From Chitinivibrio alkaliphilus ACht1 (GTDB taxonomy: Bacteria > Fibrobacterota > Chitinivibrionia > Chitinivibrionales > Chitinivibrionaceae), in contig NZ_ASJR01000001.1 in assembly GCF_000474745.1 (NCBI RefSeq), positions 1-64,000 of the forward strand: 64,000 bases of DNA, read 5' to 3'. The first letter of the stretch is position 1. Each line of letters starts with the position of its first letter. The notes beneath the pieces are model-generated. The model was given only the letters and a program-made list of their open reading frames with translations. It was not told the origin of the DNA and ran no database searches. Shown here piece after piece: positions 43,900-55,822 of the stretch. A program made the translations under genes and the position numbers.

Positions 43900-44035
43900 G
43901 GTTTGTCTACTCAGAATGCGGCTGTGTCAACGATGGGGGCTTGTGTGTTCCTCTGTATTGAAGGTGTTTCCCTATACGGGGGGCATGTCTTAATTTCAAA
44001 AAAAGAGTGTTTTTTCTCTGAGTGATATATATTTG

Positions 44036-44176
44036 CGCTTTGGGTGTCAGGGAATCAGGTGAAAATCCTGAGCAGTCACCGCTACTGTCAGGTGCAAAAA
44101 CAGGTCAACTTCAGTACAGCCACCCTCCGGGGGAAGGCAGAAGTATGATGCACCAAGCCAGGAGACCTGCCCAATA
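44036..44176 (+). promoter_or_regulatory. Adenosylcobalamin (cobalamin) riboswitch
   Basis: The region contains the conserved class-I sequence GGGAATCAGGTGAAAATCCTGAGCAGTCACCGCTACTGTCAG in fragments of its core, the GCCACCCTCCGGGGGAAGGC element, ATGATGCACC, and the B12 box GCCAGGAGACCTGCC (44157-44171). TTGGG (44040-44044) and CCCAA (44170-44174) can close P1. A TATATATATT block just before it is the likely -10. It ends about 50 bases before the receptor gene, and CCGTGCGG (44190-44196) may be its pseudoknot partner. B12 binding would repress receptor synthesis. No other gene is visible in 43900-44223. Confidence 0.95.
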
Positions 44177-44223
44177 TAATCTTGCTTCCCGTGCGGTGAA
44201 CTGGGGATAGTTGGAAAGGTATA

Positions 44224-49518: not shown

Positions 49519-50295
49519 ATGGATTGGAAAATTTTCATTAGTACCTTTGGCCTCATATTTCTTGCCGAACTGGGCGATAAGACTCAGTTTGCTATTATGG
49601 CAGCCACGGCAAGTCGCCGATCAATTCTCCCTGTGTTTTTAGGAGCCTCCCTTGCCTTGGTTCTTTCTACCTTAGTTGCCATTGCAGCAGGGACCCTTCT
49701 GCGACGCTTTGTTCCGGACAGCGCGCTTCAGATTGCAGCAGGAGTGCTTTTTCTTATCTTCGGGGCGGTGATCCTACTGGGGGCACTTCGCGGAGAGCCT
49801 GCTGAGGAGGAGGCATTTCAGGATACAGCTCCTGCTCTACAGGGTGGGGGAGTTGTTGAGCGCTCCGTACTCTATCTTGCTGAAAATCTCGAATCGGAAA
49901 TTTTGGCATCCTATGAGGATGTTCGAGCACGCGTTGACTCGCCTGAAATCGAAGAGCTTCTTTCGCAACTTATCGAAGAAGAAACGTCCCATCTTTCAAA
50001 TCTCTCAACCCTTTCCTTTGAGGGAACACAACATGTGAAAGATCTTGAGACGCACGAAGAGAAATGTATTCTTGAAGAGCAGAAGAAGGGCACGGAGGAT
50101 GGTTCCATTGCAGAGATACTACAAGATATTTTACAGAAAGAGCATAACATATACATGGTGTATCGCAGTCTTTCCCGCAAGGTAAAGATTGAGTCCGTAC
50201 GTCATGTTATGAAAGGCCTTGCGGAAGAAGAAAAACGTCATATTGTGGCTGTTGAAGATATGATTTCTCATTATAAAAATAAGGAACATCTATGA
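49519..50295 (+). CDS. GDT1/UPF0016 half-transporter fused to a rubrerythrin-like ferritin domain
   Basis: A 258-residue protein. Residues about 1-90 are a single UPF0016 repeat of three helices with the signature FLAELGDKTQFAIMAATA (E-x-G-D-K-T), the Mn/Ca-cation site of the GDT1/TMEM165 family, which normally has two repeats. After a short linker, residues about 115-258 form a helical domain with IEELLSQLIEEETSHLSNL and MKGLAEEEKRHIVAVEDMI, both with E-E-x-x-H motifs, plus KEHNIYMVYRSL, as in rubrerythrin-like diiron four-helix proteins. A metal-sensing or detoxifying membrane ferritin analogous to MbfA (ferritin-VIT1) is inferred. It overlaps the DUF3078 gene by 4 bases. Confidence 0.82.
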   Translation: MDWKIFISTFGLIFLAELGDKTQFAIMAATASRRSILPVFLGASLALVLSTLVAIAAGTLLRRFVPDSALQIAAGVLFLIFGAVILLGALRGEPAEEEAFQDTAPALQGGGVVERSVLYLAENLESEILASYEDVRARVDSPEIEELLSQLIEEETSHLSNLSTLSFEGTQHVKDLETHEEKCILEEQKKGTEDGSIAEILQDILQKEHNIYMVYRSLSRKVKIESVRHVMKGLAEEEKRHIVAVEDMISHYKNKEHL

Positions 50296-51185
50296 AAAAA
50301 ATTGGTATTTCTCTCGTCTTTTGTATGAGCCTTGTGTGGGCAGAAAATATGCCCCAGGAAGCGTGGAAACTTTCGGCCACAGCGAATCTTACGGTTTCGC
50401 AATCGTATTATTCCGATAATTGGGATGGCTCGCAACGGGGTACTGTGGCATGGATGGCAGATTTTTTGGGTCGGGCGAAGAAACAAATATCCCCTGTGCT
50501 TCGTACGAGAAACACCTTGCGAATTGACTATGGGCAGACAAAGTCTCAAGATGAAGACGGGAATTGGGATGATTTTACCAAAACCACCGATCGCATTGAG
50601 TATGAAACGCTGCTTCTCTTTTCTCTTAATGAGTGGATTGAGCCCTTTATCTCAGCTAAGGTAAATTCTCAGTTTACCCATGAGGCAAAACGGGTTGACC
50701 ATGATTCTTCCTTGGTGAACCCAAAGTATGATCTTCGATTCAATCCTATTACCATTACAGAAAGCTTTGGGGTATCCCGTGATTTTATTGCGGAGGAGAA
50801 CAGTTCTCTCTCAGCTCGTTTGGGTGGAGCGTTTAAACAGACGATTCGACGCTGGGAGTTGCAGGAAGATGGGACCTACGATGATGAGTTTATTAATGAT
50901 GCCGGTTTGGAGCTGGTAGGAGAATACGAAACAAATCTGCACGATGATTTTCTGGAATATCGAAGTACCCTCTCTCTTTTTACCGCCTTGGCAAGTTCTG
51001 AGGAGTATGACCATGACGACTGGAAGGTGCCCCAGGTGGAGTGGGATAATTCGGCCACGATCCATCTTACAGACTATATTATTTTTCGCGCTGGTTTAGA
51101 GTTACTCTATAATAAGCTTATTGATACTGATGTGCGGCTTCGGCAAAATATGTCTCTCGGTATACAGTTTCGCCATTCGAATTAG
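50292..51185 (+). CDS. DUF3078 outer-membrane beta-barrel protein
   Basis: A 297-residue exported protein: signal peptide about 1-18 (MKKIGISLVFCMSLVWA), then a chain of alternating-hydrophobicity strands that begins ANLTVSQSYYSDNWDGSQRG, the DUF3078 entry region, and includes TRNTLRIDYGQTKSQDEDGN and DRIEYETLLLFSLN. The C-terminus ends in a strand with aromatic FRHSN. The function of the family is unknown. The ATG overlaps the preceding stop (ATGA), coupling it to the GDT1-ferritin fusion. queG starts 6 bases after its stop. Confidence 0.82.
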   Translation: MKKIGISLVFCMSLVWAENMPQEAWKLSATANLTVSQSYYSDNWDGSQRGTVAWMADFLGRAKKQISPVLRTRNTLRIDYGQTKSQDEDGNWDDFTKTTDRIEYETLLLFSLNEWIEPFISAKVNSQFTHEAKRVDHDSSLVNPKYDLRFNPITITESFGVSRDFIAEENSSLSARLGGAFKQTIRRWELQEDGTYDDEFINDAGLELVGEYETNLHDDFLEYRSTLSLFTALASSEEYDHDDWKVPQVEWDNSATIHLTDYIIFRAGLELLYNKLIDTDVRLRQNMSLGIQFRHSN

Positions 51186-55563: not shown

Positions 55564-55636
55564 TGAGCCAACAAGGGATCGAACCTTGGACCCACGCCTT
55601 AAAAGGGCGTTGCTCTACCAGCTGAGCTACTGGCTC
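55564..55636 (-). tRNA. tRNA-Lys (anticodon UUU), copy 1
   Basis: 73 bases without encoded CCA. The acceptor GAGCCAG pairs with TTGGCTC, the anticodon stem ACGCC/GGCGT encloses CTTTTAA with UUU, and the T arm has CAAGG-TTCGATC-CCTTG. Identical to copies 2 and 3; last of three on the minus strand. Confidence 0.96.
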
Positions 55637-55656
55637 ATATTGTGTACACGTATAAA

Positions 55657-55729
55657 TGAGCCAACAAGGGATCGAACCTTGGACCCACGCCTTAAAAGGG
55701 CGTTGCTCTACCAGCTGAGCTACTGGCTC
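55657..55729 (-). tRNA. tRNA-Lys (anticodon UUU), copy 2
   Basis: Identical to copy 1. The distance from copy 1 to copy 2 is 93 bases. The 20-base spacers are nearly identical between copies. Confidence 0.96.
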
Positions 55730-55749
55730 ATATTGTGTATATGTATAAA

Positions 55750-55822
55750 TGAGCCAACAAGGGATCGAACCTTGGACCCACGCCTTAAAAGGGCGTTGCT
55801 CTACCAGCTGAGCTACTGGCTC
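55750..55822 (-). tRNA. tRNA-Lys (anticodon UUU), copy 3 (promoter-proximal)
   Basis: Identical to copies 1 and 2, again at a 93-base period. The promoter at 55845-55873 reads directly into this copy. Confidence 0.96.

Follow-up and report, generated by a model that had tools for sequence, protein, structure and literature searches.

Bacteria have few known iron exporters, and the MbfA type is the known case in which export is coupled to a ferritin-like domain (FLD). In MbfA (Er-VIT1), a membrane-bound ferritin of the alpha-proteobacteria, and in rubrerythrin-VIT1 proteins, all set in an iron and oxidative-stress context, a diiron FLD is covalently joined to the N-terminal side of a VIT1/CCC1 membrane metal transporter. 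MbfA needs this cytosolic, ferroxidase-type domain to export iron (PMC7762939). The GDT1/UPF0016 family (TMEM165, Gdt1p, PAM71, MneA and single-repeat prokaryotic proteins) is built on an ELGDKT repeat with three membrane helices, and its known members have no ferritin-like domain. GDT1 proteins transport Mn and Ca; known ones contain two inverted repeats, and the single-repeat prokaryotic members are predicted to be homodimers (PMC7380456). Members of the family, bacterial MneA among them, either export Mn2+ or exchange Ca2+/Mn2+ for protons (PMC7380456, PMC13274385). Rubrerythrins, COG1633-type proteins and EncB-type encapsulin cargo ferritins are soluble and share a four-helix layout of diiron ligands (E, EExxH, E, ExxH).

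Here, we analysed a gene that joins these two families in the window, i.e. the whole 64,000-nucleotide stretch of Chitinivibrio alkaliphilus ACht1 DNA. The gene (49519..50295, + strand) is a single open frame of 258 aa plus stop, and the Pfam GDT1 and Rubrerythrin profiles both matched its product above cut-off. The GDT1 profile (PF01169) matched residues 8-82 (49540..49764, +) with 75.6 bits against a cut-off of 27 (E = 3.8e-21), and the Rubrerythrin profile (PF02915) matched the full protein in two stretches with 38.3 against 22.8 bits (E = 2.1e-9). The protein has a single E-L-G-D-K-T motif (residues 17-22) and lacks a second GDT1 repeat; with the following Gln, the cation motif (residues 17-23; 49567..49587, +) was unvarying in 30 aligned fusion proteins. 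The FLD (residues 112-256; 49852..50286, +) contains two E-E-x-x-H motifs, EETSH at 154-158 and EEKRH at 237-241, and the lone residues E125 and E208 complete the ligand layout expected of a diiron four-helix bundle. An AlphaFold2 model built with 30 family members (mean pLDDT 79) predicted membrane helices at 3-30, 36-61 and 67-90, a disordered linker at 93-108 (pLDDT < 50) and four long FLD helices at 112-138, 142-166, 197-221 and 225-256, mostly with pLDDT > 90; the N-terminal membrane half was modelled less well (58-91). The Foldseek neighbours of the model were ferritin-like proteins (2fzf, YciF, the KatB Mn-catalase, Dps, bacterioferritin and TM1526). Thus, Pfam, the motifs, AlphaFold2 and Foldseek all bear out the description in the first-pass annotation of one UPF0016 half with a single E-L-G-D-K-T followed by a domain with two E-E-x-x-H motifs. 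That annotation had named two findings that would speak against a fusion. One was the absence of a ferritin-like profile match at residues 115-258; scanned alone, the C-terminal part matched Rubrerythrin with E = 1.5e-9. The other was a misplaced stop between two genes, which is excluded because the frame is uninterrupted and independent fusions occur elsewhere. Fusions of the same layout in many genomes likewise rule out an assembly artefact or frameshift.

By the sequence features tested, the window protein is a member of both the GDT1 family and the ferritin-like superfamily. It resembles MbfA in having a diiron FLD covalently attached to a membrane metal transporter; however, its membrane domain is GDT1 with no Pfam match to VIT1, and its FLD is C-terminal instead of N-terminal. 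With the NCBIfam MbfA model it scored 15.9 bits, below the cut-off of 450, so the window protein is not an MbfA by sequence, although by analogy it may work like one. The claim that this is an architecture distinct from MbfA stands on both the transporter family and the reversed domain order. Unlike the rubrerythrin, COG1633 and EncB-type proteins, the FLD is membrane-anchored, and neither a rubredoxin domain nor another electron donor is attached to it; NCBIfam matches to EncB families were weak.

About 50 further fusions were found in Fibrobacterota, Spirochaetota, Planctomycetota, Verrucomicrobiota, Kiritimatiellota and Lentisphaerota. Full fusions were present in 6 of 168 Fibrobacterota genomes, including that of the window, and full-length fusions were detected in sampled genomes of Spirochaetota (7/393), the Verrucomicrobiota group (14/289) and Planctomycetota (7/294). 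When 84,980 species genomes were scanned, 26 of the best 80 matches were fusion loci, and a virus search found no viral copy of the fusion, only one plain GDT1. Across the family, Pfam matched GDT1 in 30 of 30 proteins and rubrerythrin in 27 of 30 at E ≤ 1e-3. Ligand conservation was counted in an alignment of 54 proteins that included two split and two hetero versions, with E/D allowed. In the GDT1 motif, E17 and D20 were unvarying (54/54), and all six predicted diiron ligands were present in at least 48 of the 54 proteins, covering six phyla. Individually, E125 of helix 1 (49891..49893, +) was kept in 53 proteins; in the EExxH at 154-158 (49978..49992, +), E155 was kept in 47 (D in 2 more) and H158 in all 54; E208 of helix 3 (50140..50142, +) was kept in 50; and in the ExxH at 238-241 (50230..50241, +), E238 was kept in 53 and H241 in 49. 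One hetero version (L131/L197) was counted as incomplete through an alignment slip, and a better alignment recovered all six of its ligands, with Asp in place of E155. A minor subclade of the Lentisphaerota/Verrucomicrobiota group (L059, L162, L164 and L165) is degenerate (E155H, E208Q, H241L/M), and the L061 fusion also lacks several FLD ligands, suggesting a pseudo-site or another function in these FLDs. In a GDT1 tree the fusions grouped strongly (5 changes vs 35.7 when shuffled), on 90 columns, which are too few to resolve monophyly. Plain verrucomicrobial GDT1 halves appeared nested among the fusions and are, judging from the tree, probable losses of the FLD. Two Planctomycetota genomes (G998 and G1013) encode a half-GDT1 with a Cys/His-rich C-terminal extension of the pattern CxxC ... 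DHH ... CxxC (L190:1486-2034 and L191:1450-2031), possibly another metal-binding accessory domain. A literature search for UPF0016, GDT1 or TMEM165 with a rubrerythrin or ferritin-like fusion returned no description; it covered sources other than subscription literature and domain-architecture databases, and within the literature searched this conserved architecture is so far undescribed.

The pairing of GDT1 with an FLD thus occurs in at least six bacterial phyla, usually as one fused protein and at times as two adjoining genes. In two Spirochaetota loci, a half-GDT1 and an FLD are encoded separately in the order of the fusion: at L102 (4364-4666 and 4668-5123) the genes are 1 bp apart, and at L069 (1251-1535 and 1552-2118) they are 16 bp apart. 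No ligand is missing from either FLD. These loci are unlikely to be frameshifted fusions, as each has a clean stop and a separate start codon. Because the pairing recurs across phyla, fused or adjoining, it looks like a membrane machine for the safe handling of iron or manganese.

The first-pass annotation had proposed that the single repeat forms a dimer, and the genomes agree with that need. In each of the 14 fusion-bearing genomes searched, no GDT1 protein besides the fusion passed the curated cut-off; elsewhere in the genome of the window, no hetero-dimer partner exceeded it, and one match of 22 bits fell below it. Since single-repeat members are predicted homodimers, stand-alone fusions should homo-oligomerise, probably in an antiparallel manner. 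An antiparallel dimer would place one FLD on each side of the membrane, including a periplasmic one that MbfA does not have, whereas a parallel dimer would leave the inverted-repeat architecture of the family unmet. Dual-topology transporters that have duplicated into antiparallel pairs, such as small multidrug resistance proteins, show opposite charge bias between the partners. Two hetero loci of spirochaete-group genomes, L197 and L198 (which coincide with L131 and L136), have a GDT1-FLD gene followed by an overlapping gene for a plain GDT1 half, and structure prediction again modelled the hetero-locus FLD as a four-helix bundle. The K/R bias was -3 in both fused halves and +5 and +4 in their plain partners, while stand-alone fusions averaged +0.67 and the window protein scored 0. 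This is the dual-topology pattern, near zero in stand-alone fusions and opposite in paired halves, and, as only two hetero pairs were found, it is suggestive of antiparallel pairing. In the hetero pairs, the C-terminus of the fused half, and so the FLD, is predicted to be cytoplasmic, with the plain partner in the opposite orientation.

Upstream of the window fusion lie thiS, thiG and thiH (thiS and thiG were named by eye from the sequence), and the fusion starts 25 bp after thiH. Downstream, a DUF3078 gene (50292..51185, +; PF11276, E = 2.1e-8) shares 4 bp (ATGA) with the fusion and is followed by queG; no metal-related gene is among the neighbours at this locus. The DUF3078 gene had been proposed to form a two-membrane unit with the fusion, and this proposal was not supported: the overlap occurs only in the genome of the window, five relatives of the same order have their DUF3078 homologues on contigs other than that of the fusion, and DUF3078 adjoined the fusion in none of the relatives' neighbourhoods examined. 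The coupling is therefore local and lies outside the conserved system. A scan for promoters and terminators around the window fusion found sites no more often than in shuffled sequence, and neither the window nor any of 26 fusion loci showed a Mn riboswitch (yybP-ykoY).

The neighbourhoods of relatives point to iron or manganese and oxidative stress, as the first reading had anticipated. A DtxR-family regulator lies near the fusion at L117, rubrerythrin and ferritin at L118, a CDF at L119, and rubrerythrins with desulfoferrodoxin at L047; at L120, desulfoferrodoxin and rubrerythrin genes flank the fusion, and at L040 an NRAMP is encoded close by on the other strand. MsrA also occurs, and such neighbours are found at some loci only. 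Rubrerythrin genes lay within 5 kb of the fusion in 3 of 14 genomes, compared to 0.14 expected (P = 3.5e-4), an enrichment that is supportive and not independent because it concerns one family picked after the neighbourhoods had been seen. A spirochaete and a same-order relative share a homologous membrane protein of ~250 aa, encoded two genes 5' of the fusion (L060 4854-5591 and L120 7216-7968). Among other transporters, MntP was absent from all 14 fusion-bearing genomes searched and VIT1 from 9 of the 14, including that of the window, so the fusion is a candidate for metal efflux in those genomes. The NRAMP survey found none in the genome of the window. Two fusion-bearing genomes of the spirochaete group also encode MbfA-like rubrerythrin-VIT1 proteins (L199:658-1530 and L200:413-1279), so both solutions coexist there.

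We favour, with modest confidence, the reading that the fusion is an MbfA-like, FLD-coupled exporter of Fe2+ or Mn2+ on a GDT1 scaffold, in which we infer the metal, the direction, the coupling of the FLD to transport and the antiparallel homodimer. A half-size GDT1 cation/proton antiporter would carry a C-terminal diiron FLD, and two chains would join in antiparallel orientation into one six-helix antiporter. The FLD would bind Fe2+ (or Mn2+) and then oxidise the metal or respond to O2 or peroxide, and this event would be coupled to proton exchange by the GDT1 pore, through which the metal would be expelled. Export is favoured because GDT1 proteins export Mn2+ or exchange cations and because MbfA needs its FLD. 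Set against this reading are the periplasmic FLD of an antiparallel dimer, the lack of metal neighbours at the window locus, the ligand-poor subclade and the lack of a Mn riboswitch. To our knowledge, iron transport by GDT1 proteins is not established; known members move Mn2+/Ca2+. A further proposal, which we put forward tentatively and regard as doubtful, is that the fusions form a class of their own, spread over several phyla, of ferritin-coupled antiporters for divalent metals built on GDT1, in which antiparallel homodimers would present a diiron domain on each membrane face and oxidise or sense metal on both sides, with the FLD on the cytoplasmic side only in the hetero versions.

The best-surviving alternative, though an unlikely one, is that the FLD is a membrane-tethered peroxide scavenger or an enzyme of the Mn-catalase/rubrerythrin type, with the GDT1 half supplying or balancing Mn or Fe and no hand-off from FLD to pore. 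Rubrerythrin is the closest Pfam family, KatB is among the fold matches, and superoxide reductase, rubrerythrin and MsrA occur among the neighbours. However, no rubredoxin domain or electron donor is attached, the redox neighbours are confined to some loci, and the degenerate subclade keeps the fusion despite losing ligands, which ill suits a pure enzyme. Close behind it, and about equally unlikely, is a cytoplasmic metal or redox sensor that gates GDT1, in which filling or oxidation of the diiron site would open or close the pore and no metal would pass through the FLD. The flexible linker at 93-108, the presence of other small Cys/His C-terminal domains on some half-GDT1s (L190, L191) and the single FLD per transporter in hetero pairs are consistent with such a gate; yet gating and hand-off look alike in sequence, and the precedent of MbfA favours direct participation of the FLD (PMC7762939). 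It is very improbable that the protein is a plain GDT1 Mn2+/Ca2+ antiporter with the FLD as a structural or dimerising appendage, as the ligand-degenerate subclade and the verrucomicrobial plain halves nested among fusions might suggest, since the full ligand set is conserved so widely and the split operons keep a complete, separate FLD that a covalent appendage would not require.

A second way of joining a diiron domain to a metal exporter, built on another transporter family and kept in at least six phyla, suggests more than one evolutionary origin of such fusions. The natural split and hetero versions allow direct tests of how GDT1 half-transporters assemble, of their topology and of their choice of metal, a point still unsettled for the TMEM165 disease family.

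Elsewhere in the window, a cobalamin riboswitch (Rfam RF00174, 75 bits) was detected at 44025-44188 (+). Furthermore, three tandem tRNA genes with identical scores and 93-base spacing lie at 55564-55822 (-), just 5' of a long mfd-like ORF; because this ORF, listed from 55885, reads through the tRNA genes, its true start should lie further in.
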